Made by a program: the position numbers and the translations under genes. Of a DNA stretch of 64,000 nt, positions 6,428 through 26,717 are shown piece by piece (positions within the stretch are counted from its first letter, which is position 1; each line of letters begins with the position of its first letter). The notes beneath the pieces are model-generated. The model was not told the DNA's origin. It worked only from the letters and a program-made list of their open reading frames with translations, and did no database searches. This DNA comes from Lysobacter helvus (GTDB lineage: Bacteria > Pseudomonadota > Gammaproteobacteria > Xanthomonadales > Xanthomonadaceae): the NCBI RefSeq assembly GCF_018406645.1, contig NZ_AP024546.1, positions 3,038,001 through 3,102,000 of the forward strand. Reading direction: 5' to 3'.

Positions 6428-7618
6428 ATGGGTCAAAACCAGTTACCCGGTCGCGTCACCGATCCGCCCGGCCCCGGGTTGCGCGCCGGGATTTCGCACG
6501 TCTGGGGATTGCTGCACCGCATGGGCCAATCGCCCCGGCGTCGCGCATTCAGCAGCGATGCCTCGCTGCTCGCGCATGCCACGCCCGACGACGTCCGCGC
6601 CCTGCTCGATGCCGCGCCGACGGGCATGCTGCTGATCGACGCGAACGGCTACATCGCCGTGGCGAACGCGACCGCAGCGCACATGCTGGGCGACCCGCCG
6701 CAAGGCCTGCACGGGATCCACGTGCACGACGCATTGCCGGGTTGCGGGCACGATGGCGAGCAGACCGCGGTGCAACCCGACGGCCGGCTCACGCCCATCG
6801 GCGTCGAAGCCCGCTCCGTGCGACTGGCGGGTCGCGATGTCCTGCTGCTGGTGCTGGCCGACGTCGCTGAATGGCGGCGCCGGGAACACGAAGCGGCGCG
6901 CCAGCGCGACGAGATCGCACACCTCTCGCGCGTGGCGATGCTGGGCGAACTCTCCGGCGCCCTCGCCCACGAACTCAACCAGCCGCTCGCGACCATCCTG
7001 ACCAACGCGCAGGCCGCGCAGCGCCTGTTGCGGGCGCGTGGCGCGGAGGCCTCGCAACGGGTGCTCGACGAAATCCTGGCCGACATCGTGGCCGAAGGCC
7101 GGCGCGCGGGCGAAGTGATCCACCGGTTGCGCCAGTGGCTGCGCAAGGAACACGCCGACCACGTGCCGCTGGTCGTCAACGAGGTCGTGATCGATGCGCT
7201 GCACCTGGTGCGCAACGACCTGCTGCACCGCGGCGTGGACGTGCAGCTCGAACTCGCCGGCCACCTGCCGGCGATCGATGGCGACCGCATCCTGCTGCAG
7301 CAGGTCCTCCTCAACTTCGTCATCAACGGGTGCGACGCCATGGAAGACACCGAAGGCCCGCACCTGCTGCGCGTGCGATCGCGTGCCAGCGAGGATGGCA
7401 GCGTGCGCGTGGACGTGATCGACCACGGCCACGGCATCGACCCGGCGATCCTGCCGGTGATGTTCGAACCGTTCGAGACCACCAAGCCAGGCGGCATGGG
7501 CATGGGCCTGGCGGTCTGCCGCAACATCATCGAATCCCACGGCGGGCGCGTGTCCGCGCGCGTGGTGCCCGAAGGCGGCGCGTGCGTCGGCTTCGAACTG
7601 CCGGCGCGCGTGCAATGA
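6428..7618 (+). CDS. Soluble PAS-type sensor histidine kinase (FixL-like architecture)
   Basis: A 396-residue kinase with no membrane segments. A short PAS-like region spans about residues 55-145 (APTGMLLIDANGYIAVANATA). It is followed by the HisKA helix with H181 in AHELNQPLATIL, then N-box (NFVINGCDAME), G1 (DHGHGID) and G2 (GGMGMGLAVC). This H-box style is typical of FixL/TodS/DctB-like kinases that pair with FixJ/NarL regulators. The PAS region does not show the FixL haem-ligand pattern, so an oxygen-sensing role is not supported; the signal is unknown. The start at 6428 has AGGAA upstream. Its stop overlaps the response regulator start (ATGA at 7615), so kinase and regulator are translationally coupled. 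Confidence 0.9.
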   Translation: MGQNQLPGRVTDPPGPGLRAGISHVWGLLHRMGQSPRRRAFSSDASLLAHATPDDVRALLDAAPTGMLLIDANGYIAVANATAAHMLGDPPQGLHGIHVHDALPGCGHDGEQTAVQPDGRLTPIGVEARSVRLAGRDVLLLVLADVAEWRRREHEAARQRDEIAHLSRVAMLGELSGALAHELNQPLATILTNAQAAQRLLRARGAEASQRVLDEILADIVAEGRRAGEVIHRLRQWLRKEHADHVPLVVNEVVIDALHLVRNDLLHRGVDVQLELAGHLPAIDGDRILLQQVLLNFVINGCDAMEDTEGPHLLRVRSRASEDGSVRVDVIDHGHGIDPAILPVMFEPFETTKPGGMGMGLAVCRNIIESHGGRVSARVVPEGGACVGFELPARVQ

Positions 7619-8256
7619 GCGCGATGACGCCCGTCGTGCACCTGGTCGACAACGACCCGCGCATCCTGCGATCGCTGGCGCGCCTGTTCGAGATCGAGGG
7701 CATCGCCACCACTTCGAGTACCTCGGCGAAGGAATTCCTGGCGCATTACGACGCCGACGTGCCGGGCTGCCTCGTGCTGGACCTGGCGATGCCGGGCGAA
7801 AGCGGCCTGGAATTGCAGGAGGCCCTGCATCGCAGCGCCGTGCCGGTGCCGGTGGTGTTCCTCTCCGGCTGCGGCGACGTGCCCTCGAGCGTGAATGCGA
7901 TGAAACACGGCGCGGTGGACTTCCTGACCAAGCCCGTCGATGCCGATGCCCTGCTCGGCGCCGTGCAACGCGCGATCGAGCAGGACCTCGCGCAACGCGC
8001 GCGTGCCGCCGACGACGCCCGCGTGCGTGCCGCGCTGGACCGGCTGACGCCGCGCGAGCACGAGATCCTGCCGTGGCTGGTGTCGGGCAAGCTCAACAAG
8101 CAGATCGCCGCGGAGCTGGGCGTGGTCGAGAAGACCGTGAAGGTGCATCGCATGCACGTGATGGAAAAGCTGGGCCTGCACAGCCTGGCCGACCTGGTGC
8201 GCCTCGTCGAACGCCAGCGCATCGCGCCAGCGCCCGTTGGGCCAACGCCCAATTGA
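7615..8256 (+). CDS. FixJ/NarL-family response regulator
   Basis: A 213-residue regulator. The receiver domain has acidic pocket VDND, phospho-acceptor D56 (VLDLAMP), the switch Ser/Thr in VFLSGCG and K in FLTKPVD. The C-terminal LuxR-type helix-turn-helix lies at about residues 143-200 (LTPREHEILPWLVSGKLNKQIAAELGVVEKTVKVHRMHVM). It is the cognate partner of the kinase at 6428. The last codons overlap a 20-bp inverted-repeat promoter element (8236-8255) that drives the next gene. The same element occurs upstream of the CDF and potE genes. The simplest inference is that this protein binds those sites and activates them. Confidence 0.92.
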   Translation: MSAMTPVVHLVDNDPRILRSLARLFEIEGIATTSSTSAKEFLAHYDADVPGCLVLDLAMPGESGLELQEALHRSAVPVPVVFLSGCGDVPSSVNAMKHGAVDFLTKPVDADALLGAVQRAIEQDLAQRARAADDARVRAALDRLTPREHEILPWLVSGKLNKQIAAELGVVEKTVKVHRMHVMEKLGLHSLADLVRLVERQRIAPAPVGPTPN

Positions 8257-8283
8257 ACGCGGCGCTGCGCGGGCCTAGCGTCC
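8236..8283 (+). promoter_or_regulatory. Island promoter element, copy 1 (upstream of receiver-only gene)
   Basis: GTTGGGCCAACGCCCAATTG at 8236-8255 is a near-perfect inverted repeat (TTGGGC/GCCCAA). After exactly 20 nt comes TAGCGTCC at 8276-8283, with a likely -10 of CCTAGC at 8274-8279. The same 20-bp element, 20-nt gap and TAGSGTCS occur at 11172-11219 (+) and 22176-22129 (-). A transcript from this -10 would begin around 8286-8288, immediately before the ATG at 8289, so the mRNA may be leaderless. Confidence 0.75.
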
Positions 8284-8288
8284 GCGCC

Positions 8289-8666
8289 ATGCAGTCGCGC
8301 GCGCCCGTCATCGCGATCGTCGACGACGAACCCGGCGTTCGCCGAGCGTTGGAGCGGCTGCTCGGCCTGTCGGGATTCGAATCCCGCCTCTTCGCGAGTG
8401 GCAGTGATTTCATGGAACACCTCGAGGGCATCGACGGCGTGATCCTCGACCTGCACCTGCCGGGCATGTCGGGCTTCGACGTGCAGAAGGCGCTCGCGGT
8501 GCGCGAAGCGCCGATCCCCGTCGTGGTGCTCACCGGCAACGACACGCCCGCCAACCGCGCGCGCAGCCTCGCCGAAGGTGCGCGCGCGTACCTGACCAAA
8601 CCCGTCGACGACGAAGAACTCTTGCAGGCGTTGCGCATGCTCGCCCCCGCGGCTTCACGTAGATGA
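8289..8666 (+). CDS. Receiver-only response regulator
   Basis: A 125-residue protein that is only a receiver domain: VDDEP pocket, phospho-acceptor D54 in VILDLHLPG, Thr in VVLTGND, Lys in YLTKPVDD. There is no output domain. It follows the FixJ-type regulator by 32 bp and has its own promoter element ending just before the ATG. Receiver-only proteins act as phosphate sinks, as kinase inhibitors (FixT-like), or as relays to another kinase. Placement under the same promoter element as the transporter genes suggests feedback on the kinase-regulator pair, but this is inference. No Shine-Dalgarno is evident, consistent with a leaderless start. Confidence 0.88.
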   Translation: MQSRAPVIAIVDDEPGVRRALERLLGLSGFESRLFASGSDFMEHLEGIDGVILDLHLPGMSGFDVQKALAVREAPIPVVVLTGNDTPANRARSLAEGARAYLTKPVDDEELLQALRMLAPAASRR

Positions 8667-8743: not shown

Positions 8744-10213
8744 ATGGACACCCCACGGACGCACACCGCAACGCGGCGCGACGCGCCCTTGCTGGCGTTG
8801 CGCATCACGGCACTCGCCGCATGCGTGCTGGCCATGGGCATCGCGGTCGATGCACGCGCGCAGGCCGCGCCACCCGCCGGCCAGTCGACCGCAACGCCGT
8901 CGACGCTGACGCAGCAGGACGTGTTCTCGAAAGAAGAACTCGCCCAGGCGCTCGCGCCCGTCGCGTTGTATCCCGACGCCCTGCTCGCGCAGGTGCTGAT
9001 GGCCTCGACGTATCCGGGCGATGTCGCCGATGCGGCCAAGTGGTCGAAGGCACATCCCGACGTGAAAGGCGACGCCGCGGTCAAGGGCGTCGCGACGGAA
9101 GACTGGGATCCGAGCGTGCAGGCGCTGGTCGCATTTCCGCAGGTGGTGCTGATGCTCGGGCACGACATCGCGTGGACGCAGAAGCTCGGCGATGCGTTCC
9201 TGGCCCAGCCCGATGACGTCATGAACACCGTGCAGGAATTGCGCCGCAAGGCGCAGGCCGCGGGCAACCTCAAGTCGGACGAGCACCAGAAGGTGTCGCA
9301 GGAAGCCGCGACCGGTACCGCTGCCGCTGCGTACCCGCAGACGATCATCATCGAGTCCTCGGAGCCGGAGAAGGTCTACGTGCCCACGTACGACCCCTCG
9401 TACATGTACGGCGCGTGGGGCTATCCCGCCTACCCGCCCTACTACTACCCGCCGGGCGCGTACTGGTATCCCGGCGCCGCGCTCGTGGGCGGCATCATGT
9501 GGGGCATCGGCATCGGCATCGCCGGCGGCCTGTGGGGCGATTGCAACTGGGGCAACGGCGACATCAACATCAATTCGAACCGCTACAACAACTTCGAACG
9601 CAACATCGACCGTGAACGCGGCGAGCGCGGGGATCGCGGCAACCGCAGCGACCGCGTCGCCAACCGGGAAAACAACAACGGCAGGTTCCAGCACGACAGT
9701 TCGCGTCGCGACGGCGTGCCCTACCGCGACCAGGCCAGCCGCGAGAAATTCGGCAACCGCCAGGCGGGTGCGGAGAATCGCGCCGGCTTCCGCGGCGACG
9801 ATGCGCGCCGCTCGCAGGCGCGGCAATCGATGGAACGCCAGGGCATGCAGCCGGCGCGCAACAACCAGCAGGCACGCGACTTCTCCAACACCGCGTCGCG
9901 CGATCCGCGTTCGTCGCAGGCCGGTGGCGGGCGCGTGGATCGCGGACCCGGTGGTTCCGCGTCGTCGTCGTACCGGCAGAACGGCGCGACCAACATGGGC
10001 TCGCGGGATGCAGCGCGTTCGCAGTACGGCGGCGGCGGCAGCTACGGGGGGTCGCGCAACAACGCGTTCTCCGGTGCGGGCAATTCCGGCGCATCGCGCG
10101 CGGCGTCCAACCGCGGCAGTTCCAGCCGGTCGGGTGCGGGCAGGAGTTCCGGAGCGGGTCGCTCGATGAGCCGACCAGCGCGTGGCGGTGGTGGCGGAGG
10201 GCGTCGTCGATGA
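8744..10213 (+). CDS. DUF3300 family secreted protein with RGN-rich tail
   Basis: A 489-residue protein. Residues 1-39 form a long signal peptide (cleavage near DARAQ/AA). Residues 57-230 match the DUF3300 pattern: EELAQALAPVALYPDALLAQVLMASTYPGDV, then QALVAFPQVVLMLGHDIAWTQKLG and YVPTYDPSYMYG. A Tyr/Pro/Gly segment with a short hydrophobic stretch follows. About 200 residues rich in Arg, Gly, Asn and Ser end in GGGGGRRR. The strong RBS TAAGGAGG supports the start. The function of DUF3300 is unknown; the basic low-complexity tail suggests binding to nucleic acid or an anionic polymer, or envelope association. Its stop overlaps the start of the DUF2950 gene (ATGA). Confidence 0.85.
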   Translation: MDTPRTHTATRRDAPLLALRITALAACVLAMGIAVDARAQAAPPAGQSTATPSTLTQQDVFSKEELAQALAPVALYPDALLAQVLMASTYPGDVADAAKWSKAHPDVKGDAAVKGVATEDWDPSVQALVAFPQVVLMLGHDIAWTQKLGDAFLAQPDDVMNTVQELRRKAQAAGNLKSDEHQKVSQEAATGTAAAAYPQTIIIESSEPEKVYVPTYDPSYMYGAWGYPAYPPYYYPPGAYWYPGAALVGGIMWGIGIGIAGGLWGDCNWGNGDININSNRYNNFERNIDRERGERGDRGNRSDRVANRENNNGRFQHDSSRRDGVPYRDQASREKFGNRQAGAENRAGFRGDDARRSQARQSMERQGMQPARNNQQARDFSNTASRDPRSSQAGGGRVDRGPGGSASSSYRQNGATNMGSRDAARSQYGGGGSYGGSRNNAFSGAGNSGASRAASNRGSSSRSGAGRSSGAGRSMSRPARGGGGGGRRR

Positions 10214-11115
10214 ACACGATCCAGACAATCCGGATGTCGTTGCTTGCTGCATCGCTCGCGTGCGCGTCGACCGCGTTCGCACAGCAGGCCTACCCCTCGC
10301 CCGACGCCGCCGGCGACGCACTCGTCGCGGCGCTCGGCCAGGACCACGCCGACCAGGCGAAGCTCGCCACCGTGCTCGGCGCGGGCTGGAAGGATTACGT
10401 GCCCGTCGGCGGCATCGATCGCAAGGACGTCGATGCGTTCCTGGTGAAGTACCGCGAGAAGCACGCGTATGAAGCGCGCAAGGACGGACGCAAAACCCTC
10501 GTCGTCGGCAACGATCCCTACTCGCTCCCGGTCCCGCTGACGAAGGACGGCAGCGGGTGGCACTTCGACCTGGCCGCCGGCCAGGATGAAATCCGCACGC
10601 GCCGCATCGGCCGCAACGAACTCGACGTCGAACAGGCGGTGCGCGCCTACAAGGACGCGCAGGACGACTACGCCGAAAAGGACCGCGACGGCGACGGCGT
10701 GCTCGAGTACGCGCAGAAGTTCACCAGCACCGACGGCAAGCACGACGGCCTGTACTGGGCCGAGGACGACAGCGGCGAAATCAGCCCGCTCGGCCCGCTG
10801 TTCGGCGACGACACGCCGAAGGGCATCTTCCACGGCTATCGCTTCCGCATCCTCACCGCACAAGGGCCGTCCGCGCCGGGTGGCGCGTTCGACTACAAGT
10901 TCGGCGACAACATGAGCCGCGGCTACGCGCTGGTCGCGTGGCCCGCCGAGTACGGCGAAACCGGCGTGATGACCTTCATGATCGGCTACGACGGCCAGGT
11001 GTTCGAACGCGACCTCGGCCAGCAGACCGACAGCACCGTCAAGGCGATGAAGACCTACGACCCCGACAGTGCGTGGAAGGAAGTGCCGGACGACGCGGTG
11101 GCCGCCAAGCCCTGA
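10210..11115 (+). CDS. DUF2950 family secreted protein
   Basis: A 301-residue protein with a signal peptide (cleavage near TAFA/QQ, residue 24). The body is typical of DUF2950: YPSPDAAGDALVAALGQ, then RKTLVVGNDPYSLPVPL, GWHFDLAAGQDEIRTRRIGRNEL and GYALVAWPAEYGETGVMTFMI. DUF3300 and DUF2950 genes are recurrently adjacent in proteobacteria; here they overlap by ATGA. Biochemical function is unknown, location likely periplasmic. The 185 bp that follow hold the second island promoter element. Confidence 0.88.
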   Translation: MNTIQTIRMSLLAASLACASTAFAQQAYPSPDAAGDALVAALGQDHADQAKLATVLGAGWKDYVPVGGIDRKDVDAFLVKYREKHAYEARKDGRKTLVVGNDPYSLPVPLTKDGSGWHFDLAAGQDEIRTRRIGRNELDVEQAVRAYKDAQDDYAEKDRDGDGVLEYAQKFTSTDGKHDGLYWAEDDSGEISPLGPLFGDDTPKGIFHGYRFRILTAQGPSAPGGAFDYKFGDNMSRGYALVAWPAEYGETGVMTFMIGYDGQVFERDLGQQTDSTVKAMKTYDPDSAWKEVPDDAVAAKP

Positions 11116-11171: not shown

Positions 11172-11219
11172 GTTGGGCAAACGTCCAATTGAGCGAGGTA
11201 TGCCGCGGGTATAGCGTCG
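11172..11219 (+). promoter_or_regulatory. Island promoter element, copy 2 (upstream of CDF exporter)
   Basis: GTTGGGCAAACGTCCAATTG at 11172-11191, then 20 nt, then TAGCGTCG at 11212-11219. The -10 candidate TATAGC at 11210-11215 is the best of the three copies. Seventeen of the 20 element positions are identical in all three copies. GG at the same distance before the -10 is also conserved. Transcription would start near 11222, giving a leader of about 80 nt before the CDF ATG at 11301. Confidence 0.78.
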
Positions 11220-11300: not shown

Positions 11301-12203
11301 ATGGATACGCGCGCCGAACAACGACTGCTCCGGGCGTCCATCTTCGTCACGACGCTCGTGGGCGCCGGCGCACTCATCGCGGGCTGGATCCTCAACGCCT
11401 CGGCCATCATGTTCGATGGCATCTACAGCCTGATCGACGTGCTGGTGACGACGGGCTCGCTCACCGTCTCGCGCCTGCTGTCCAACCCGGCGAGCCGGCG
11501 TTTCCAGTACGGCTTCTGGCACCTGGAACCGCTGGTGGAAACCGTCGGCGGCGCGATCCTCGCCACGGCCTGCGTGTACGCGGGCATCGATGCGGTCGAG
11601 GGTCTGCTGCGCGGCGGGCATGTCATCGAATTCGGCACCGCGATCGCTTGGGCGGCGACGCTGGGCGTGGTCGGCATCGGCATGTCCACGTTCATGCGCA
11701 GGCAATCGCGCAGGTTGGGCTCGCCGTTGCTGGCGATGGATTCGCGCACGTGGATGGTCAGCGCGATGCTCAGCTTCGCGTTGCTCGCCGGCTTCGGGCT
11801 GGCGATCGCGATGGCAGGCACGCGCTTCGCGCGCTGGATCCCGCTCGTGGATCCGGCGGTGCTGCTGGCGGTCTCGATGGTCACGCTGCCGGTGCCGCTG
11901 CTCGGCACGGTGCGCGCGTTCCGCGAAATCCTGCAGGTCGCGCCCACCGAACTGGACCGCAAGGTGCGCGCGGTGATGGATGCGGTGATGGCCGAGCGCG
12001 GCTTCCTGGATTACGCCAGCCACGTGCAGAAAGTCGGGCGCGGGCAGTTCATCGAGATCCACGTGCTGCTGCCGGACACGCACGTGTTCTCACCGATTTC
12101 CATGGCCGATGCGCTGCGCGACGAGATCGCCGCGCGCCTGGGCGAGGACACCGCCACGACGTGGCTCACCATCGATTTCACCGGGGATCGCGCGTGGTTG
12201 TAA
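11301..12203 (+). CDS. Cation diffusion facilitator (CDF) family transporter, atypical metal site
   Basis: A 300-residue polytopic protein with CDF layout: TM2 carries MFDGIYSLIDVL, a YGFWHLEPLVE loop precedes TM3, and a cytoplasmic C-terminal domain (DRKVRAVMDAVMAERGF ... GRGQFIEIHVLL) follows six TM segments. CDF proteins export divalent metals by proton antiport. In canonical members two Asp in TM2 and HxxxD in TM5 bind the metal. Here TM2 keeps one Asp in register (Y-S-L-I-D) plus an earlier Asp, and the TM5 segment reads MDSRTWMVSAM, lacking a clear HxxxD. Substrate is therefore uncertain. It lies under the second copy of the island promoter element. Confidence 0.8.
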   Translation: MDTRAEQRLLRASIFVTTLVGAGALIAGWILNASAIMFDGIYSLIDVLVTTGSLTVSRLLSNPASRRFQYGFWHLEPLVETVGGAILATACVYAGIDAVEGLLRGGHVIEFGTAIAWAATLGVVGIGMSTFMRRQSRRLGSPLLAMDSRTWMVSAMLSFALLAGFGLAIAMAGTRFARWIPLVDPAVLLAVSMVTLPVPLLGTVRAFREILQVAPTELDRKVRAVMDAVMAERGFLDYASHVQKVGRGQFIEIHVLLPDTHVFSPISMADALRDEIAARLGEDTATTWLTIDFTGDRAWL

Positions 12204-12278
12204 GCCGCCCGTCCCTCGTCCCAACCGCCGTCCGCGCGTAGCGGACGCGTGCCCGACTGCCACCGGAAGGAGACTGCC

Positions 12279-13760
12279 ATGCGCTCCCCGCAGGATCGAA
12301 TCGCATCGATGAAGTTGCATCTGCTCGGCGTTGCCCTGGCCGCCGCGATCGCACCCGGCGTCGCCGCCGCGCAATCGAAGGACGCCACCACGGCCGAACT
12401 GAAGGAACAGATCGCGAAGATGCAGGCGCAGCTGCAACAGCAGCAGCAGGCGATGCAGCAGATGCAGCAGCGCCTGTCGGAACTGGAGACGACGCAGCAG
12501 GCGCAGGCCGCCGCCGCGCCCACCGTCGCGCCCGCGGTCGCCGCCGCGGCGCAGCCGGTCACCGACGCCGACATCCCGCAGCAGGAACCGGCCTCGCGCA
12601 TCCACAAGCCGCCCTCGGCGCTGGCCGGCGTCGAAGAGCCGCCACCCTCGGGCTACGTGCGCCTGGGCGATTCGGGGAACATGGTGAAGCTGGATGTCGT
12701 CGCGCAGACCGACATGATGTTCGACAACAAGCTGATGCCCTACAAGGACCTGTTCATCCCGGCGGGCATCCCGGTGGAAGGCCAGCCCTTCCACGACTCG
12801 CACATGCAGAGCAACCTCAGCGCCAAGCAGAGCGTGGTGCGCATGGACTTCCGCCGCGACACGCCCTATGGCCTGTTGAAGGTCGTCTACAAGAACAACT
12901 TCTTCGGGTTCGGCGGTCCGGACATGGACTACAACCTGCAGTACCTGTACGGCGAACTGGAAGCGAAGGACTACTCGATCCTCGCCGGCTACTACCTGTC
13001 CGGCTTCACCGACATCAGCGTGTTCCCCAACACGCTCGATTACGAGGGCCCGAATTCCTTCACCTTCAAGTACGCGCCGCAGTTCCGCTACACGCCGGTC
13101 ATCTGGCGCCACGGCGAAGGCCGCCTGACGCTGCCGATGACGCTGGAAAAACCCAACGCCGACATCGCGCTCATCAGCGACAACCAGACGTATTCGAAAT
13201 ACCCGGACGTGACCCTGGGCCTGCGTTACGAAGCCCCCGACTGGCACATCCAGTGGTCCAACCTGTTCCGCAACCTGGCAGTGCAGAGCGCCTCGAGCGA
13301 CCGCACGCGTTCCACCGAAGCCTACGCCACGCAACTGACCTTCGCCGCCGGCGTGTTCGGCGACGACAGCGTCCAGGGCTGGGTGAGCACGGGCAAGGGC
13401 TATGCGAACTTCCTGCAGGACATCACCGGCTTCGGCCTGGATGCGGCGTTCAACCCATCGCTGGACCTGGAGGCGACCGACGCCTACGCCTGGGGCATGG
13501 GCTACACGCACGCCTGGAGCGACGCGGTCAGCTCGAGCGCGTCGTACGGCTACCTGAACATCAACCCGGACTTCAACGTCTTCATCGACCAGTCGTTGCC
13601 CGACACCACGCAGTACGCCTCGCTCAACGTCGCCTGGCAGTTCAGCGAGCGCGCGATGGTCGGCGCCGAATGGCTGTGGGGACACAACAAGACCCTGGCC
13701 GGTGATACCGGCGATGCGCAACGCCTGCAGATGACCTTCCGCTACGACCTCAACCCCTGA
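12279..13760 (+). CDS. DcaP-like trimeric outer-membrane porin
   Basis: A 493-residue protein with an N-terminal signal peptide and a Gln-rich coiled coil (residues about 40-75, LKEQIAKMQAQLQQQQQAM). A barrel of many Tyr/Trp-rich strands follows and ends QMTFRYDLNP. Coiled coil plus barrel is the layout of the DcaP family of outer-membrane channels, known for uptake of anionic/dicarboxylic compounds and other small solutes. GGAAGGAG precedes the ATG at 12279; an upstream in-frame ATG (12249) lacks this. It is the first gene of a tight cluster: 11 bp to the first decarboxylase. It may admit substrate or release product for the decarboxylases. Confidence 0.85.
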   Translation: MRSPQDRIASMKLHLLGVALAAAIAPGVAAAQSKDATTAELKEQIAKMQAQLQQQQQAMQQMQQRLSELETTQQAQAAAAPTVAPAVAAAAQPVTDADIPQQEPASRIHKPPSALAGVEEPPPSGYVRLGDSGNMVKLDVVAQTDMMFDNKLMPYKDLFIPAGIPVEGQPFHDSHMQSNLSAKQSVVRMDFRRDTPYGLLKVVYKNNFFGFGGPDMDYNLQYLYGELEAKDYSILAGYYLSGFTDISVFPNTLDYEGPNSFTFKYAPQFRYTPVIWRHGEGRLTLPMTLEKPNADIALISDNQTYSKYPDVTLGLRYEAPDWHIQWSNLFRNLAVQSASSDRTRSTEAYATQLTFAAGVFGDDSVQGWVSTGKGYANFLQDITGFGLDAAFNPSLDLEATDAYAWGMGYTHAWSDAVSSSASYGYLNINPDFNVFIDQSLPDTTQYASLNVAWQFSERAMVGAEWLWGHNKTLAGDTGDAQRLQMTFRYDLNP

Positions 13761-13771
13761 GGGCTGCCGCA

Positions 13772-16084
13772 ATGTCGATGAACGCCCCATGGATCCTCGT
13801 GGTCACCAGCGACCCGCCGGACAGCGGATCGGTGTTCCGCTTCGCGCTGCAACGCCTCGGCGAGGCGATGAAGCAGCAAGGCATCGAGGTGGTGCCCACG
13901 CATTCGTGGGAGGACGGCCTGGGCGTGGCGCGCGGTTCGGCGACCTACTCGGGCGTGGCGATCGACTGGAACCTCGGCGAGACCGCGAAGCCGCGCGAAG
14001 ACGAAGTGCTCGCGATCATCCACGCGGTGCGCCGCAAGTCGCTGCGCATCCCGATCTTCCTGCTGACGCGCGACCTCACCGAGGGTTCCATCCCCTGGAG
14101 CATCGTCTCGGAAGTGCGCGAGTACGTGAACCTCGCCGGCGAGACGCCCGAGTTCTTCGCGCGCCGCGCGCAGTTCGCCATCGACGAATACCACGAAGCG
14201 TTGCTGCCGCCCTACTTCAAGGCGCTGAAGAAACTCACCGAGGAAGGCACCTACCAGTGGGATGCGCCCGGACACATGGGCGGCGCGGCCTACCTCAAGC
14301 ATCCGGCCGGCGCGGAGTTCCATCGCTTCTTCGGCGAGAACCTGATGCGCGCCGACATCGGCATCTCCAACGTCGAGCTGGGCTCGTGGCTCGACATCGA
14401 AGGCCCGCCGGCGGAATCGCAGCGCATGGCCGCGCGCGTGTTCGGCGCCGACTGGACGTTCTACGTGCTCGCCGGCTCGTCCGCCTCCAACCGCATCGTG
14501 ATCCAGGCCTGCGTGGGCCAGGACGAGATGGTGGTGGTGGATCGCAACTGCCACAAATCGCTGAACCACGCGATGACGCTCGCGCGGTCGCGGCCGGTGT
14601 ACTTCCAGCCGAGCCGCAACGGCTACGGCATGATCGGATTGATTCCGCCAAGCCGCTTCACCGCCGCGCACATCGCGGGGCTGGTGAAGGATTCGCCGTT
14701 GTCGAAGGGCGCGCGTTCCACCGAAGCGGTGCATGCCGTGGTCACCAACCCGACCTACGACGGCATCCTCTACAACGTGGATCGCGTCGCCAAGCTGCTG
14801 TCCGACAGCGTGCCGCGCGTGCACTTCGACGAAGCCTGGTATGCGTACGGCAAGTTCCATCCGCTGTACCGCCACCGCTACGCCATGGGCGTACCGCGCG
14901 ACATGCCGAAGCGCCCGACGGTCTTCAGCGTGCAGTCGACGCACAAGATGCTGCCGGCCTTCTCGATGGCCTCGTACATCCACGTCAGCAACAGCGAGCG
15001 CGGCAAGGTCGCATGGTCTCCGTTGAAGGAGGCCTTCATGATGCACGGCACCACCTCGCCGTTCTACCCGCTGATCGCCTCGCTCGACATCGCCAGCGCG
15101 ATGATGGATGCACCCACCGGGCCGGCGTTGCTGGAAGAGACCGTCGGTTATGCGATCGACTTCCGCAAGCGCGTCGCCGCCGCGGCCGCGCGCTACGCGA
15201 AGGCAGGCGAATGGAGCTTCAGGCTCTACCAGCCCGACAGCGTGCGCATCGACGGCAAGCAGGTCCCCTTCCAGGAGGCACCGACCGACACGCTGTGCAA
15301 CGACGCGCAGTGCTGGACGATGCGCGTGGGCGAGGACTGGCACGGCTTGCCGGATGAAGTGGTCGCCGACGACTTCGCGATGCTCGACCCCACCAAGGTC
15401 ACCATCCTGTGCCCCGGCACCGACGCGCAGGGCAAGATCGCCAAGCTCGGCATCCCCGGCACCATCCTCAGCAAGTTCCTCGATGCGCGGCGCCAGGAAA
15501 TCGCGCGCACGGGCGACTACACGGTGCTGATCCTGTTCTCCGTCGGCACCACGCAAGGCAAGTCCGGCACGCTGCTCGAAACGCTGCTCGCGTTCAAGCG
15601 CCTGTACGACCGCGACGCATCGATCGAGGAAGCCCTGCCGGAACTCGCGCGCGCCTACCCCGACCGCTACGGCACGATGACGTTGCGCGGGCTGTGCGAA
15701 GAAATGCACCAGGCGATGACCGAGCTCGACCTGCAGGCGATGGCCAACCACGCGGGCGAAGTCATTTCCGAACAGGTGCTCACGCCTTCGGATGCCTACC
15801 AGCACCTGATCCACGGCCGCACCGAAGAGGTGCGCATCCGCGACCTGCCCGGCCGCGTGGCGGCGCTGATGATCGTCCCGTATCCGCCGGGCATCCCGGT
15901 GCTGATGCCGGGCGAACGCGTCGACCCCAAGGGCGGCACCATCCTGAAGTTCCTCGAAGCCGTCGAAGCATTCGGCAAGCGCTTCCCGGGCTTCAGCCGC
16001 GAAGTCCAGAACATCCATCCCGACGCCAACGGCGACATGTGGGCGACGGTCGTCGCCAACGACGCCCTCGCCTCGGGGCGCTGA
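13772..16084 (+). CDS. Inducible-type Orn/Lys/Arg decarboxylase, nearest lysine type (decarboxylase 1)
   Basis: A 770-residue fold-type I PLP decarboxylase of the large acid-resistance class. The N-terminal receiver-like wing domain (about 1-130) is followed by the PLP domain with APGHMGG, SSASNRI, VDRNCHKSLNH, TNPTYDGILYN, HFDEAWYAYG and the PLP lysine K392 in STHKML. The C-terminal domain carries HGRTEEVRIRDLPGR and PYPPGIPVLMPGE. These resemble E. coli CadA (HGMTEEV..., PYPPGVPLVMPGE) more than AdiA, so lysine to cadaverine is the favoured reaction, but specificity cannot be fixed by eye. A second decarboxylase gene starts 11 bp downstream, and the AdiC-type antiporter follows. Confidence 0.88.
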   Translation: MSMNAPWILVVTSDPPDSGSVFRFALQRLGEAMKQQGIEVVPTHSWEDGLGVARGSATYSGVAIDWNLGETAKPREDEVLAIIHAVRRKSLRIPIFLLTRDLTEGSIPWSIVSEVREYVNLAGETPEFFARRAQFAIDEYHEALLPPYFKALKKLTEEGTYQWDAPGHMGGAAYLKHPAGAEFHRFFGENLMRADIGISNVELGSWLDIEGPPAESQRMAARVFGADWTFYVLAGSSASNRIVIQACVGQDEMVVVDRNCHKSLNHAMTLARSRPVYFQPSRNGYGMIGLIPPSRFTAAHIAGLVKDSPLSKGARSTEAVHAVVTNPTYDGILYNVDRVAKLLSDSVPRVHFDEAWYAYGKFHPLYRHRYAMGVPRDMPKRPTVFSVQSTHKMLPAFSMASYIHVSNSERGKVAWSPLKEAFMMHGTTSPFYPLIASLDIASAMMDAPTGPALLEETVGYAIDFRKRVAAAAARYAKAGEWSFRLYQPDSVRIDGKQVPFQEAPTDTLCNDAQCWTMRVGEDWHGLPDEVVADDFAMLDPTKVTILCPGTDAQGKIAKLGIPGTILSKFLDARRQEIARTGDYTVLILFSVGTTQGKSGTLLETLLAFKRLYDRDASIEEALPELARAYPDRYGTMTLRGLCEEMHQAMTELDLQAMANHAGEVISEQVLTPSDAYQHLIHGRTEEVRIRDLPGRVAALMIVPYPPGIPVLMPGERVDPKGGTILKFLEAVEAFGKRFPGFSREVQNIHPDANGDMWATVVANDALASGR

Positions 16085-16095
16085 AGGAGAACGCA

Positions 16096-18396
16096 ATGCG
16101 CGCCAGCACCGACCAGCCCCAACGTTTCCGCGTCCTCATTGCCCATCGGCAGGTCGGGACCGACACCGCGAGCGGACGCGCGTGCGCGGCGCTGGCCGAG
16201 GAATTCGCGCGCCGCAACGTCGAGACGGTGACCGCCGCCGAAGGCAGCGACGCGCAAGGGATTGCCACTTCCGACACCGGGCTGCACGCCATGCTCGTCG
16301 ACTGGTCGATGCCCGTGGGCGACGACGCGTCGGGCGATGCGGCCGCGCTGGTCGATGCGATCCGCGCGCGCAACGAGCGCGTGCCCATCTTCCTGCTGAC
16401 CGAACCGGAAAAGGCGAAGACGCTCAACGCCGAGAAGCTGCGGCAAATCGACGAACTGGTGTGGCTGCTGGAGGACACGGCGCCTTTCATGTGCGGCCGC
16501 GTCGAATCCGCCATGCGCATCTACGCCGAGGGCCTGTTCGGCCCGATGGTCACCGCGCTCTCGCGGTTCCATCGCGTGCACGCGTACTCGTGGCACACGC
16601 CGGGGCACACCGGCGGCACCGCGTTCCTCAAGCACCCGGCCGGGCGCGCGTTCTTCGATTTCTACGGCGAGAACGTGTTCCGCACCGACCTGTCCATCAG
16701 CGTGGGCAGCCTGGGCTCGCTGCTGGACCACACCGGTCCGATCGGCGAGAGCGAGAAGTACATCTCCCGCATCTTCGGATCGCACCGCAGCTACACCGTC
16801 ACCAACGGCTCGTCCACGTCCAACCGCATCATCTTCATGGCGTGCATCGGCCGCGACCAGGTGGTGCTGTGCGACCGCAACTGCCACAAGTCGCTCGAGC
16901 ACGGGCTGATCATGAGCGGCGGCATCCCGCAGTACATGATCCCCTCGCGCAACCGGTACGGCCTGATGGGGCCGATCTATCCCGGGCGCTTCGACGAGAA
17001 GACGGTGCGCAAGGCGATCGCGGACACGCCGTTGTCGAAAGGCCTGGAGGACCAGCAGCCCGCGTTCGCCGTGGTCACCAATTCCACGTACGACGGGCTT
17101 TGCTACAAGGTGGACCGCGTGCTCTCGCAGCTCGGACCGTGGGTGGACCGGGTGCATTTCGACGAAGCGTGGTTCGGCTATGCGCGGTTCAATCCGTTGT
17201 ATGCCGGGCGCATGGCGATGCGCGGGGATCCGTCGGCGCACGATCCGAACGGCCCCACGGTGTTCTGCACGCATTCCACGCACAAGCTGCTGGCCGCGTT
17301 CTCGCAGGCCTCGTACATCCACGTGCGCGATGGCCGCAACGCGATCCCGCATCCGCGCTTCAATGAAACCTTCATGCTGCACGGCTCCACGTCGCCGTTC
17401 TATCCGATCATCGCGTCCAACGAAATGGCCGCCACGATGATGGACGGCGCGAGCGGCGCGGCGCTGACGCGCGAGTCCATCGACGAGGCGATCCATTTCC
17501 GCCAGCTGGTCGGCCGGCTGCGCCGCCAGGCGGAGGCGAAGAAGGATTGGTTCTTCCGCACCTGGAATGCCGACACGGTGCACGACCCGTCCAGCGGCAA
17601 GCGCGTGAATTTCGAAGACGCATCTCCGGAACTGCTGGGCACCGACCAGCAGTGCTGGGTGCTGCATCCGGGCGATGCGTGGCATGGCTTCGACGACCTC
17701 GAAGACGACTACTGCATGCTCGATCCGATCAAGGTCACCGTGCTGATGCCGGGCGTGCAGGACGATGGGTCGCTCGGGCCGAAGGGCTTCCCCGCCTCGC
17801 TGCTCACCGCCTACCTCCACGCGCGCGGCATCGAAGTGGAGAAGACCAGCGACTTCGGCGTGTTGTTCCTGTTCTCGCTGGGCATCACCAAGGCCAAGTG
17901 GAGCACGCTGCTCGCGGCGATGCTCGACTTCAAGCACGACTACGACCAAGACACGCCGTTGTCGCGGATCATGCCGCACCTCGTCGCCGACTATCCGGAC
18001 ACCTACACCGGCCTCGGGCTGCGCGGGTTGGGCGATCGCATGTTCGAAGAGCTGCGCCGCACCTCGCAGATGCAGAACCTGCAGAAGGCGTTCCAGTCGA
18101 TCCCCGAAGCGCGCATGTCGCCGGCCGATGCGTACCAGGCGCTCATCCGCAACCGCATCGAGCGCGTGCCGTTGTCGCAGCTGGCCGACCGCACGATCGC
18201 CACGAGCGTCGTGCCCTACCCGCCCGGCATTCCGATGATGATGCCCGGCGAAACCGCGGGCGCGGCGGACGGGCCGTACATCGGATACCTGAAAGCGCTC
18301 AAGAGCTGGGACAAGACCTTCCCCGGCTTCGGCCACGACACGCACGGCGTGGAAGTGCACGACGGCGAGTACTACGTGCAGTGCGTGAAGGACTAG
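16096..18396 (+). CDS. adiA: AdiA-type arginine decarboxylase (decarboxylase 2)
   Basis: A 766-residue biosynthetic/degradative-type PLP decarboxylase. Segments match E. coli AdiA closely: LLEDTAPFMCGR in the wing, SWHTPGHTGG, GSLGSLLDHTGPIGESEKY, PSRNRYGLMGPIYP, NSTYDGLCYKVDRV, HFDEAWFGYARFNPLYA, and PLP lysine K397 in THSTHKLLAAFSQASYIHVR. The C-terminus is GVEVHDGEYYVQCVKD. The expected reaction is arginine + H+ to agmatine + CO2, consuming a cytoplasmic proton. The start at 16096 has AAGGAG overlapping the end of the upstream gene. An AdiC-type antiporter gene begins 4 bp after its stop, the classic arginine acid-resistance pairing. Confidence 0.9.
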   Translation: MRASTDQPQRFRVLIAHRQVGTDTASGRACAALAEEFARRNVETVTAAEGSDAQGIATSDTGLHAMLVDWSMPVGDDASGDAAALVDAIRARNERVPIFLLTEPEKAKTLNAEKLRQIDELVWLLEDTAPFMCGRVESAMRIYAEGLFGPMVTALSRFHRVHAYSWHTPGHTGGTAFLKHPAGRAFFDFYGENVFRTDLSISVGSLGSLLDHTGPIGESEKYISRIFGSHRSYTVTNGSSTSNRIIFMACIGRDQVVLCDRNCHKSLEHGLIMSGGIPQYMIPSRNRYGLMGPIYPGRFDEKTVRKAIADTPLSKGLEDQQPAFAVVTNSTYDGLCYKVDRVLSQLGPWVDRVHFDEAWFGYARFNPLYAGRMAMRGDPSAHDPNGPTVFCTHSTHKLLAAFSQASYIHVRDGRNAIPHPRFNETFMLHGSTSPFYPIIASNEMAATMMDGASGAALTRESIDEAIHFRQLVGRLRRQAEAKKDWFFRTWNADTVHDPSSGKRVNFEDASPELLGTDQQCWVLHPGDAWHGFDDLEDDYCMLDPIKVTVLMPGVQDDGSLGPKGFPASLLTAYLHARGIEVEKTSDFGVLFLFSLGITKAKWSTLLAAMLDFKHDYDQDTPLSRIMPHLVADYPDTYTGLGLRGLGDRMFEELRRTSQMQNLQKAFQSIPEARMSPADAYQALIRNRIERVPLSQLADRTIATSVVPYPPGIPMMMPGETAGAADGPYIGYLKALKSWDKTFPGFGHDTHGVEVHDGEYYVQCVKD

Positions 18397-18400
18397 CGGC

Positions 18401-19717
18401 ATGCACGGCGGCACCGGCGACAAGAAGATGGGGCTGGTGGCGGCGACGTCGCTGGTCGTCGCCAACATGGTCGGCACGGGCTTGTTCCTGCTGCCGTCCA
18501 GCCTGGCCGCCGTCGGCAGCATTTCGGTGTTCGGGTGGCTGGTGTCGACGCTGGGCGCCACGGCGCTCGGCCTGGTGTTCGTGCGCCTGAGTTCTTCTGC
18601 ACCCAAAGCCGGCGGACCGTACGCGTATGCGCGCGATGCCGTCGGTCCCTTCGCGGCGTTCCAGACGAACACGCTCTACTGGGGCGCCAGCGTGCTGGGC
18701 AACGTGGCGATCGCGGTGTCGGTGACGGGCTATCTCGCCGTGTTCGCACACGTCCTGGAATCGCCGGTGCCGGCGTGCATCTGCACCATCCTCGTGATCT
18801 GGCTGTTCGTGTGGCTCAACACGCGCGGCGCGTCGTCGGTCGGGCACTTCACCACGATCACCACGGTCGCCGGCATCCTGCCGGTCGCGGTCGTGGGATT
18901 GCTCGGCTGGTTCTGGTTCGACCGCGGCGTGTTCGATGCGGGATGGAATCCGTCGAACATGCCCGCCGCATCGGCCGTGATGACGAGCGCGTCGATCGCG
19001 TTGTGGGCGTTCCTCGGGGTGGAGAGCGCGGCGGTGTCGGCGGGCGTGATCGAGAATCCGAAGCGCAACGTGCCGCTGGCCACGATCATGGGACTGGCTA
19101 TCTCCGCGGTGATCTACGTCTCGTGCTGCACGGTGATCATGGGCATCCTGCCCAACGCCCAGTTGCAGTCCTCGCATGCGCCCTTCGCCGAAGTGGCCAG
19201 CGTGATGCTCGGCCCGTGGGCCGGCAGCGTGATCGCCATCGCCGCGATCCTCAAGGCATCGGGCTCGCTGGTGGGCTGGATCCTGATCGCCGCGCAGTCG
19301 TCGCAGGCGGCGGCCACCGACGGCATGTTCCCGCAGTCGTTCTCGCGCCTCAACGCGAACGGCATGCCGGCGCGCAACCTGGTGGTCACCGGCGTGCTGA
19401 TGACGGCGCTGGTGATCCTGACCGCGTCGCCGACCCTGTCCGAGCAGTTCTCGCGCATCACCAACGCCACGGTCATCCTGATGGCGCTGCCGTACATCTA
19501 TTCGGTCATGGCGATGTGGCGGATGGATCGCGCCGCGCACCGGACCGACCACCTCGCGGCCTCGATCGTCGTCGGCGTCGCGGCGTGCCTGTACTGCGTC
19601 GGCGTCGCGATCGGGCAATCGCACGACCTGGTGTTCAAGGCGATGATCGCGTTGCTGCTGACCACGCCGCTGTTCGCGCTGGTGCGCCTGCAGGACGGAC
19701 AACCCCGCGTCGGGTAG
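18401..19717 (+). CDS. adiC: AdiC-type amino acid/polyamine antiporter (APC superfamily)
   Basis: A 438-residue inner-membrane APC transporter with about 12 TM segments. It tracks E. coli AdiC along its length: MVGTGLFLLPSSLAAVGS in TM1 (the GSG/GTG unwound motif), AGGPYAYARDAVGPF, TNTLYWGASVLGNVA, LWAFLGVESAAVSAGVIENPKRNVP, and SGSLVGWILIAAQSSQAAATDGMFP. The two substrate-stacking tryptophans of AdiC have counterparts in LWAF and VGWI. It should exchange external arginine for internal agmatine. It could also serve the adjacent lysine-type enzyme. Four bp from the adiA-like gene. Confidence 0.9.
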   Translation: MHGGTGDKKMGLVAATSLVVANMVGTGLFLLPSSLAAVGSISVFGWLVSTLGATALGLVFVRLSSSAPKAGGPYAYARDAVGPFAAFQTNTLYWGASVLGNVAIAVSVTGYLAVFAHVLESPVPACICTILVIWLFVWLNTRGASSVGHFTTITTVAGILPVAVVGLLGWFWFDRGVFDAGWNPSNMPAASAVMTSASIALWAFLGVESAAVSAGVIENPKRNVPLATIMGLAISAVIYVSCCTVIMGILPNAQLQSSHAPFAEVASVMLGPWAGSVIAIAAILKASGSLVGWILIAAQSSQAAATDGMFPQSFSRLNANGMPARNLVVTGVLMTALVILTASPTLSEQFSRITNATVILMALPYIYSVMAMWRMDRAAHRTDHLAASIVVGVAACLYCVGVAIGQSHDLVFKAMIALLLTTPLFALVRLQDGQPRVG

Positions 19718-19730
19718 GTGCAACGCAAAC

Positions 19731-19748
19731 GGCGCCGCAAGCGGCGCC
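19731..19748. terminator. Hairpin between convergent genes (weak bidirectional terminator)
   Basis: GGCGCCG, a CAAG loop and CGGCGCC form a seven-pair GC-only hairpin between the AdiC-type gene (+) and the binding-protein gene (-). No T-run follows on either strand, so intrinsic termination is plausible but weak. Confidence 0.4.
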
Positions 19749-19774
19749 GCTGTCGGTGGTTGCAACGGATCGGC

Positions 19775-20689
19775 TCAGTCGGGTTCGGCGAGGCGGCGGA
19801 AGAACATCCGCGTGGATTCGCCGGCGGGGCCGAAGTGCGTCGCGTACAGCTGCTCGAACTTGCCCGTGCGATACGTGCGGCTCAGCACGCGGTCGACCAG
19901 CAACCGGAAGTCCTCGTCGCCGCGCCGCAGCGCGAACGCGTAGGACGTCGGGTCGAACTCGCGATCGATGACCATCACGTCGCCCGCGCCCTGCCCGTTG
20001 CGCGCCAGGTCCATCAGCACGTTGCGGTCCGACACCAGCGCATCGGACTTGCCGGACACCACGCGCGCCAGGCCTTCGGCCATGCTGGTCACGGGCGTGA
20101 TCTTGAAGTTGACACCGATCTCCTGCCGGCGCGCCTCCAGCAACTTCGCCGACGCCGTGCCCGGCACCACCGCGAAGTCCCGCTGCTGCAGCGCCGCCAG
20201 TTGCGGCGAGCCGCGCCAGATCGGTTGCGCGCCCGGCTTGCGGCCTTCCAGCAGGTTGCGCAGCGCGGGCGAGACGTTCTTGCGCACCAGGATGCCGGTG
20301 CCGCCCGGCATGACCGGGATGGAGAAGTCCACCGACGCGCGGCGCGTCAGCGTCGCCTGCATCGGCGTGCACGACATGTCGATGCGGCCCGCGGCGAGCG
20401 CCGCCGCCGGATCTTCGTCAAGCGGCACGAACTCCACTTTCAGGCCGGGCTGCTTGAGCTGCAGGCGCACCGCTTCGGCGACGAGGCGGCACAGCGAGAT
20501 GGCATAGCCTTCCGCGGCACCCGAGTCGTTGCGCCACGTCAGCGGGCGTGCGCCCGGCAGGTAACCGAACGACAGCGTGCCGGCGTCCCGCGCATGCGCG
20601 AAGGTGGCCTGGGCCTGCGCCGGCATGGGGGCGAGCATCGCGAGCGCCAGGGCCGTGGATGCGAACGCGAGAGTGCGGGCGGTGTGCAT
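19775..20689 (-). CDS. Periplasmic amino-acid-binding-type protein (SBP family 3), orphan
   Basis: A 304-residue protein with a signal peptide (cleavage near AQA/QA, residue 26). The fold is a family-3 solute-binding protein: GTLSFGYLPGARPLTW, EGYAISLCRLVAEAV, GRIDMSCTPMQATLTRRASVDFSIPVMPGGTGILVRK, then a second lobe with SDALVSDRNVLMDL. Such proteins bind amino acids for ABC importers or feed periplasmic sensors. No permease or ATPase gene is nearby. It follows potE by 35 bp, so it probably shares that transcript and may capture ornithine, arginine or lysine. GGAGGT precedes the ATG at 20689. Confidence 0.85.
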   Translation of the reverse strand: MHTARTLAFASTALALAMLAPMPAQAQATFAHARDAGTLSFGYLPGARPLTWRNDSGAAEGYAISLCRLVAEAVRLQLKQPGLKVEFVPLDEDPAAALAAGRIDMSCTPMQATLTRRASVDFSIPVMPGGTGILVRKNVSPALRNLLEGRKPGAQPIWRGSPQLAALQQRDFAVVPGTASAKLLEARRQEIGVNFKITPVTSMAEGLARVVSGKSDALVSDRNVLMDLARNGQGAGDVMVIDREFDPTSYAFALRRGDEDFRLLVDRVLSRTYRTGKFEQLYATHFGPAGESTRMFFRRLAEPD

Positions 20690-20724
20690 GGAATACCTCC
20701 AGATCGCGGGCGCTTGCGCCTTGG

Positions 20725-22098
20725 TCATGCCGTGCGCGCGGGGCCGGTGCTCGCCGGCGGCGGGGACTTGGTTGCCATGAAGCCGTAGATGATGAAGGTC
20801 AGCGCCATCACGATGGTGCCGCCCATCACGGCGTCTCCGCCCGACGCGTAGATCGCGTACGTGCTGTACAGCATGCCCACGACGGCGACGAACATGTTCT
20901 TGCGGTACGTGCCCTGCGGGACGCCGCCGGCCTTGCGCATGATCACCCCGAGGGCCGACAGCGCGATGATGTAGGGAATGACGTTGGTGACCACGGCCAG
21001 GCCCACCAGCGCGGAGAACTGCTCGCTCAGCGACGGCGAAATGGTCGACAGCGCGAGGATGGTCTGCACCACGCCCATCACGATCATGCCGGTGACCGGC
21101 GCGAGCATGCGGTTGGTCTTGGCGAAGAACGCAGGGAACAGGCCTTCGCCCGCCGCCGTCTTGGCGGTCTGCGCGATCGTGAACTGCCAGCCCAGCAGCG
21201 AGCCCAGGCACGCGAGGATCGCCAGCGCGCGGATGATGGTGCCCACGGTGCCGCCGAACATCTGCGCATACGCGTCGGCGAACGGACCCGTCGAGGCGGC
21301 GAGAAGCTTGTTGGGCACGATGCCCTGGATGACGGTGGTCGACAGGATGTAGACGACCGCCGCGCCGAGCGTGCCGAACATGCACGCCAGCGGCACGTTG
21401 CGCTTCGGGTTCTCCACCGCATCGGAGTTCTGCGCCGCCGACTCCATGCCCAGGAACGCCCACAGCGTCAGCGCGATGCTCGATCCCATGCCGGCGCCGA
21501 GGCTCAGGCCCTGCGGATTCCACGCTTGCTTGAACGTCGTGCCGCTGAAGAAGAACCAGCCGATCACGCAGATGCCCGCCACCGGGATGATGACGCCCCA
21601 CACCGTGATGCTGCCGATCTTGCCGGTGATGTTCGGGCCGCCGAAATTGGCGACGGTGGTGAGCCACACCAGCACGATCACGCCGATGCACGTGGCGATC
21701 GGGGCCGAGGACAGCCACGGGATGAAGGCCGCCAGGTACCCCACGGCGGAGATCGCGATGGCGACGTTGCCGATCGCCAGCGACAGGAAGTACAGGAAGA
21801 ACGTCAGGAAGTAGCCATCGCGTCCGTACGCGTCCTCCGCGTACGCCGCCATGCCGCCGGCCTTGGAATTGAAGACGCCCGCCTGCGCGAACCCGTAGGC
21901 GATCGCCATCGAGCCCAGCGCGGTCACGCCCCACGACAGCAGCGAGATCGCGCCCACCTGCGCCATGTTCGCGGGGAGCATGATGATGCCCGAGCCCATC
22001 ATGTTGACGGCCACCAGCAGCGTGAGCTGCACGAGGCTCATCTTCTTGGTGGCGGGCGTGGAAGTGGCGGAGCTCGTTGCGGTGGCCGTCGTGTTCAT
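20725..22098 (-). CDS. potE: PotE-type putrescine/ornithine antiporter
   Basis: A 457-residue APC transporter with about 12 TM segments. It is very close to E. coli PotE: LVAVNMMGSGIIMLPANMAQ in TM1, GGMAAYAEDAYG, GNVAIAISAVGYL, VANFGGPNITGKIGSITVWGVIIP, SSIALTLWAFLGMESAAQNSDAVENPKRNVP, GSLLGWQFTIAQTAKTA, and TISPSLSEQFSALVGLAVVTNVIPY. PotE exports putrescine in exchange for ornithine and pairs with the ornithine decarboxylase SpeF. A SpeF-like gene lies upstream on the same strand, separated by the VIT-like gene. potE has its own promoter with the third copy of the island element. Confidence 0.92.
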   Translation of the reverse strand: MNTTATATSSATSTPATKKMSLVQLTLLVAVNMMGSGIIMLPANMAQVGAISLLSWGVTALGSMAIAYGFAQAGVFNSKAGGMAAYAEDAYGRDGYFLTFFLYFLSLAIGNVAIAISAVGYLAAFIPWLSSAPIATCIGVIVLVWLTTVANFGGPNITGKIGSITVWGVIIPVAGICVIGWFFFSGTTFKQAWNPQGLSLGAGMGSSIALTLWAFLGMESAAQNSDAVENPKRNVPLACMFGTLGAAVVYILSTTVIQGIVPNKLLAASTGPFADAYAQMFGGTVGTIIRALAILACLGSLLGWQFTIAQTAKTAAGEGLFPAFFAKTNRMLAPVTGMIVMGVVQTILALSTISPSLSEQFSALVGLAVVTNVIPYIIALSALGVIMRKAGGVPQGTYRKNMFVAVVGMLYSTYAIYASGGDAVMGGTIVMALTFIIYGFMATKSPPPASTGPARTA

Positions 22099-22128
22099 GT
22101 CGCTTCCCGGACGCGTCCAGACTCGGAC

Positions 22129-22176
22129 GGACCCTAGACCTGCCGCATGGCCCCAGCAATTGGCCGTTTGCCCAAT
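22129..22176 (-). promoter_or_regulatory. Island promoter element, copy 3 (upstream of potE)
   Basis: Read on the - strand: ATTGGGCAAACGGCCAATTG (22176-22157), then exactly 20 nt, then TAGGGTCC (22136-22129). The -10 candidate is TCTAGG (22138-22133). Transcription would start near 22126, giving a leader of about 28 nt with GGGAAG before the potE ATG at 22098. It sits in the 86-bp gap after the VIT-like gene, so potE can be induced apart from the upstream speF unit. Confidence 0.78.
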
Positions 22177-22184
22177 GCGGCGGC

Positions 22185-22847: not shown

Positions 22848-22851
22848 CGCC

Positions 22852-26550: not shown

Positions 26551-26717
26551 ACGTTCACGGGCGTTCCCGGCGGCGTTAGCCCAAGAGCCAATGGAAAGGC
26601 CTCGGGCCTGGGTGGTGTCATACGCTGCCCCGGCCCGCGGCATCGTCGCATCGGGTTTCCCCGACCTGGCGCACGATCGGTCGCACAGCGGGAGACCCAT
26701 CCCGGGAGGGACGCACC

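Follow-up and report, generated by a model that had tools for sequence, protein, structure and literature searches.

A FixLJ-type kinase-regulator pair in Lysobacter helvus and a conserved dyad element before its receiver-only gene

Introduction

A histidine kinase, a response regulator and a receiver-only protein are encoded side by side in Lysobacter helvus. Which genes do they control, what does the kinase sense and what does the receiver do? We analysed these genes within a window of 64,000 nucleotides of the genome, which is a single contig of 3,270,620 bases. An earlier note on this DNA had described a soluble PAS kinase coupled to a FixJ-type regulator, with a receiver standing alone behind a regulon element. 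It had likened the three to FixL-FixJ with a FixT-like feedback protein and had proposed them as the controller of the surrounding island. In Caulobacter and Sinorhizobium, FixT inhibits FixL autophosphorylation, and phosphorylation of FixT itself was not seen, according to excerpts of PMC7078487; the same excerpts give Caulobacter FixT a 4-Cys motif that Sinorhizobium FixT does not have. The FixJ site, TAAGTAATTTCCCTTA, is a 16-bp imperfect dyad (excerpts of PMC4999443).

Results

A FixL-type kinase core with a variable sensor half

The genes and domains of the locus are as follows.

6428..7618, + strand: soluble FixL-type histidine kinase, 396 aa (Pfam, NCBIfam, PDB sequence match, hydropathy)
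About 6590-6862, within the kinase gene: incomplete PAS domain
6941-7150, within the kinase gene: HisKA domain with H181
7280-7606, within the kinase gene: HATPase_c domain
7615..8256, + strand: FixJ/StyR-type response regulator, receiver 7636-7965 and GerE 8041-8205 (Pfam, NCBIfam, PDB sequence match)
8289..8666, + strand: receiver-only protein, 125 aa, D54, T82 and K104 present, Pfam receiver domain alone
8744..11115, + strand: DUF3300 and DUF2950 genes 3' of the receiver gene (Pfam)

The kinase is predicted to have no membrane segment, since its maximum 19-residue mean hydropathy is 1.19, and the ATG of the regulator gene (7615) overlaps the stop codon of the kinase gene. Together with the Pfam and NCBIfam domains, this bears out the earlier description of a soluble PAS kinase paired with a FixJ-type regulator. 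The kinase start at 6428 is favoured over 6521 because the alignment of relatives begins at residue 16-17. For the kinase half, the top NCBIfam model of 69 families was FixL, at 168.6 bits and short of the FixL equivalog cut-off of 850, and the nearest chains among solved structures were FixL-containing (PDB sequence match, 132 bits). The regulator joins a receiver to GerE (Pfam), which is the FixJ domain architecture; its top NCBIfam model was FixJ (174 bits, below the equivalog cut-off of 255). Its best match among solved structures was 1yio (157 bits, residues 5-201), followed by FixJ 5xso (119 bits). The PDB annotates 1yio only as a response regulatory protein; we take it to be StyR. A kinase match adjoined the regulator in all 30 loci compared (L010-L039).

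The sensor half is a different matter. The PAS profile of Pfam has 113 positions, of which the match (7e-8, residues 55-109) spans only 2-56. In an alignment with its relatives, about 20 residues are missing from the window PAS at the haem-bearing stretch of FixL; the deletion is nearly identical in G102 and G127 and smaller in G075. A haem-binding PAS with a proximal His, a feature of FixL, is therefore absent from the window kinase, in agreement with the earlier note, which had seen no haem-binding pattern there. The full-length PAS of the G196 kinase, aligned to solved FixL, has Arg at the haem-His column, a column picked from what we take to be the position of that His in the FixL PAS. Two PAS stretches and hydrophobic N-termini are found in the kinases of G105, G010 and G180. 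The N-terminus is also hydrophobic in G039, which has no Pfam PAS, and in G038, which has no PAS. Judging from these alignments, the sensor half of the kinase is not conserved even inside the genus. Given this deletion and the exchange of sensor halves within the genus, haem sensing of the FixL type is not supported. A search of genome contigs with the kinase yielded 8 relatives, all distant, and the structure model of the kinase, built on a thin alignment of 8 sequences, had pLDDT <50 at residues 1-147 and is uninformative on the PAS.

In the receiver-only protein the phosphorylation residues are intact, as they are in the relatives read. Its top NCBIfam model was again FixJ (75.6 bits; next model 57.5), and no FixT-named model was among its best 25 NCBIfam matches. 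It contains no Cys, against 1-3 in the relatives' receivers read, and the 4-Cys Fe-S motif of the Caulobacter FixT form is not present. The DUF3300 and DUF2950 genes possibly share the receiver transcript. The order receiver-DUF3300-DUF2950 recurs in G127, and across genomes receiver genes are joined to differing neighbours (DUF3300/DUF2950, decarboxylase). Elsewhere in the window, ORF calling outlined a second signalling cluster at 39310-44122, made up of two large genes, one of them receiver-like, and a small receiver-like gene (41088-41525).

A dyad element with fixed promoter spacing

Between the regulator and receiver genes, and at two further places in the window, pattern searches located a dyad followed by promoter-like boxes.

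8237-8252, + strand: dyad TTGGGCCAACGCCCAA, proposed regulator site, overlapping the 3' end of the regulator gene (pattern searches, footprint in relatives)
8253..8281, + strand: predicted receiver promoter, -35 TTGAAC 8253-8258, -10 TAGCGT 8276-8281, ATG at 8289
11173..11217, + strand: second element, dyad 11173-11188, TTG at 11189, -10 TAGCGT 11212-11217
22131..22175, - strand: third element, dyad 22160-22175, TTG 22159-22157, -10 TAGGGT 22136-22131

In all three window copies TTG directly abuts the dyad and TAGCGT or TAGGGT follows 20 bases on, and the spacing from the dyad to the -35 and -10 boxes is fixed across sites. At the receiver gene, the stop codon of the regulator gene sits inside the -35 box, and a leaderless transcript is expected because only 7 bases separate the end of the -10 box from the ATG. 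A fourth copy, changed at one position and with a 21-base spacer, lies outside the window; it starts at G000:2844906, and the aligned ccoN start is 83 bp further on.

Genome-wide, TTGGGCNAACGNCCAA has exactly three perfect copies (8237, 11173 and, on the minus strand, 22160), all inside the window. The pattern GGNCNAANGNCCAATTG has four copies in the genome; its reversed control has none there or in any of the 198 family genomes, which places the element beyond chance. A scan of the window alone that allowed up to 3 mismatches gave 3 sites against 0.49 expected. Only strict matches to the dyad were counted, because looser patterns matched controls at least as often as true sites (own genome, 10 vs 11 and 56 vs 160). 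A weak element-like site at 26576-26596, before a gene at 26718, scored 17.7 bits vs 28.2-36.1 for the training sites and was left uncounted. With three sites within 14 kb, the earlier proposal of island-wide control gains sequence support.

The element accompanies the regulator and precedes the receiver-only gene

The element was compared with the regulator across 198 genomes of the same family, our own included. The regulator found matches in 44 genomes at 1e-40; 18 of these, including our own, matched at 5.6e-57 or better and were taken to have the close regulator, the cut being placed by eye between 5.6e-57 and 5.1e-51. The pattern GGNCNAANGNCCAATTG was present in 19 of the 198 genomes: 13 of the 18 with the close regulator vs 6 of the 180 others (Fisher 2.6e-12, kinship ignored). 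Counted by genus, the element occurred in 4 of 7 with the close regulator vs 3 of 47 without (p 0.003), and all five genomes of our own genus in the set carried it.

In every one of the 13 genomes with both the close regulator and the exact element, the element lay directly 5' of a receiver-only gene, called by length and likeness. The arrangement described in the earlier note, a bare receiver behind the element, is thus seen in other genomes too. None of the six genomes without the close regulator had the element before a receiver-only gene, and at least four of those six matches we judged, by reading them, to be chance. Five close-regulator genomes had no exact element. One of them, G078, has a near match at the same place; of the remaining four, three have no separate receiver within 1.5 kb, and in G021 the receiver is 36% identical. 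In a search with a loose pattern, four regulator loci from elsewhere in the order (L117-L120) were without the element. Predicted control of the receiver gene by the regulator is well supported by comparison, because the element co-occurs with the regulator and stands before the receiver gene in 13/13 genomes.

Decarboxylation is a recurrent proposed target

Behind the second and third elements lie two sets of proposed target genes.

11301..19717, + strand: proposed target run of cation efflux, DcaP porin, two Orn/Lys/Arg decarboxylase and amino-acid permease genes (ORF calling, Pfam)
19775..22098, - strand: proposed target, amino-acid permease 20725-22098 and solute-binding protein 19775-20689 (ORF calling, Pfam)

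We infer that the 11301..19717 run forms one operon. The stretch 13772-25116 as a whole clusters three Orn/Lys/Arg decarboxylases, two amino-acid permeases, an amino-acid-type binding protein and an OprD-type porin gene.

Decarboxylase genes are found near the element in relatives too. A 918-aa Orn/Lys/Arg-type decarboxylase is encoded right 3' of the receiver in G102, and in G101, where the regulator is only 46% identical, a decarboxylase of this type follows the element with a -10-like box. Decarboxylases of the relatives share only 26-29% identity with the window ones, and the genus mates had no further exact element before decarboxylase genes. Other genes found 3' of the element in relatives were of OmpA type, sodium/calcium-exchanger type and EF-hand type, one of each scanned. 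From the genes found behind the element in the window and in relatives, the receiver is the predicted core target, and decarboxylation recurs among the predicted targets. As side observations, a gene of one look stands repeatedly 3' of the element (L043, L045, L049, L060, L062, L067, L069), the L049 gene being of the OmpA family with a weak DUF5666 match, and G105 has a dyad copy without TTG, apparently before a decarboxylase homologue (L103 13540-13555).

A dyad in place of an FNR box before the cbb3 oxidase genes

The fourth copy of the element makes the proposed regulon wider than in the earlier note, since this copy precedes a set of cbb3 oxidase genes that lie beyond the island.

L001 4907-7119, own genome, outside the window: cbb3 oxidase genes, with the dyad in place of an FNR box

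ccoN was found in 16 of the 19 genomes searched, and only in our own was the dyad 5' of it (1/16). In the 600 bp scanned, no FNR box precedes this ccoN even when 2 mismatches are allowed. A perfect FNR box precedes 14 of the other 15 ccoN genes and the dyad none of them (0/15), in a count that omits a paralogue (L086, 31% identical). The perfect FNR box, TTGATNNNNATCAA, does not occur at all in our 3.27-Mb genome and occurs 2-7 times in each of eight relatives. All three Crp-family matches of our genome were read; they include one Cys-rich protein of FNR type (L108). A second FNR-type protein, read in 4/4 genus mates, for which only some Crp-family matches were fetched, is not among these three.

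The ccoN gene itself is 60-64% identical to the ccoN of the other genomes searched, genus mates included; among the genus mates the identity is 87-89%. Its nearest relatives belong to another family of the order (f12), at up to 79%, and two genomes of its own family reach 74%. The dyad was absent from all 29 nearest ccoN loci fetched, all of them from f12, where the best site agreed at 12 of 20 positions. An FNR-like box at 0-1 mismatch was present in 9 of these 29 loci, in one case 459 bp away. Since the relatives' ccoN genes have no dyad and our ccoN is closest to that of f12, our lineage appears to have acquired the dyad before ccoN, and the operon looks foreign or fast-changed.

Discussion

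The reading that we favour, and consider somewhat probable, is a switch of FixLJ type with a built-in loop, made up of the kinase, the regulator, the dyad targets and receiver feedback. The soluble kinase, by its family, would phosphorylate the FixJ/StyR-type regulator. The phosphorylated regulator would then bind the dyad TTGGNCNAANGNCCAA, centred about 44 bp before the expected transcription start and abutting the -35 box, and activate RNA polymerase there, the comparison of 198 genomes providing the link between regulator and element. The receiver-only gene would be its first target. Next would come the island's decarboxylase and permease genes, with the cbb3 genes added in this species. 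The receiver, produced in step with the output of the pathway, may dock on the kinase in the regulator's place and damp it, either by FixT-like inhibition or as a phosphate sink. The sink is an equally possible role because the phosphorylation residues are kept; FixT itself was not seen to be phosphorylated, according to the excerpts cited above. The input is probably something other than oxygen bound by PAS haem, most likely a cue of redox, respiratory or acid nature that is read by other means.

The module shares with FixL-FixJ-FixT of Sinorhizobium and Caulobacter the kinase core and the regulator family, a single-domain receiver as a transcriptional target of the pathway (predicted here from the element) and a cbb3-type oxidase in the predicted output. 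It differs in that the PAS lacks the haem stretch, and in that the proposed site immediately precedes the receiver gene and, in this genome, the cbb3 genes, with no FixK step seen. The likeness drawn in the earlier note held in part: a FixL/FixJ-type pair and a bare receiver behind the element stand by sequence, and phosphotransfer, binding of the element by the regulator and feedback of the receiver on the kinase are predictions. Neither equivalog cut-off was reached. In size TTGGGCNAACGNCCAA, to which the regulator would bind, is similar to the TAAGTAATTTCCCTTA site given in excerpts of PMC4999443, but its sequence is another. The receiver, without Cys, also differs from Caulobacter FixT, although Sinorhizobium FixT too is without the 4-Cys motif in the excerpts of PMC7078487. 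In its best solved relative, 1yio, the regulator resembles a second type of system. This we presume to be the StyS-StyR / TodS-TodT type, from which the proposed targets (receiver, decarboxylase, permease, cbb3) depart in not being aromatic degradation genes. FNR-type regulation of cbb3 genes performs the same task, which the dyad would have taken over at our ccoN; that gene has the dyad and no FNR box, unlike the 14 of 15 others with a perfect box.

The role of the receiver is where an alternative carries most weight. The regulator might control the element as proposed and the receiver be an output that, once phosphorylated, acts on another protein in a feed-forward arrangement. Its intact phosphorylation residues fit this, whereas FixT was not seen phosphorylated (excerpts of PMC7078487), and so does the pairing of receiver genes with different neighbours in different genomes. 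The receiver is, however, most like FixJ receivers and adjoins the kinase in the genus, and it is the sole target kept in 13/13 genomes, as would suit a part of the loop itself; we hold the output role to be rather unlikely. It seems more improbable still that another regulator, travelling with the pair, reads the element while the pair controls something else. Binding of the element by the regulator is a prediction, and the element does occur in 6 of 180 genomes without the close regulator, in G101 before a decarboxylase. Yet the element co-occurs steeply with the close regulator and adjoins it, most of the six stray matches look like chance on reading, and the size of the dyad suits FixJ-family dimers (16 bp for the FixJ site in excerpts of PMC4999443).

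That the kinase is a true FixL, with a PAS that binds haem and senses oxygen directly, we regard as very improbable. The nearness of the kinase half to FixL chains (132 bits) and to the FixL NCBIfam model, and the cbb3 genes within the proposed regulon, would fit such a sensor. The haem-His stretch, however, is deleted in the window kinase, the column is Arg in G196, and the G039 kinase has no Pfam PAS at all.

We therefore return to the FixLJ-type switch with its loop. The regulatory module is real and well conserved, and it belongs to the FixLJ kind, not to a separate one; it is possibly a haem-independent low-oxygen or redox switch of that kind. The dyad before ccoN gives the best hint, though from one genome, that the circuit may be active when a high-affinity oxidase is useful. 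A bolder version, that a low-oxygen/redox circuit of FixLJ type without haem sensing took, in this species, a foreign-type cbb3 operon from FNR-type control by means of the dyad and joined it to amino-acid decarboxylation, is tentative and in our view doubtful. In this version kinase core, regulator, receiver and dyad would be kept and the sensor half freely exchanged, so that the input may enter through the kinase core or the receiver. Searches of open-licence literature turned up no title on such a system; subscription journals lay outside them. The system offers a defined DNA element, few target promoters and a natural rewiring, in the form of a ccoN with a dyad instead of an FNR box. It makes testable whether oxygen or the respiratory state is what a haem-less relative of FixLJ senses, and whether FixJ-type circuits beyond Alphaproteobacteria include receiver-only feedback proteins.
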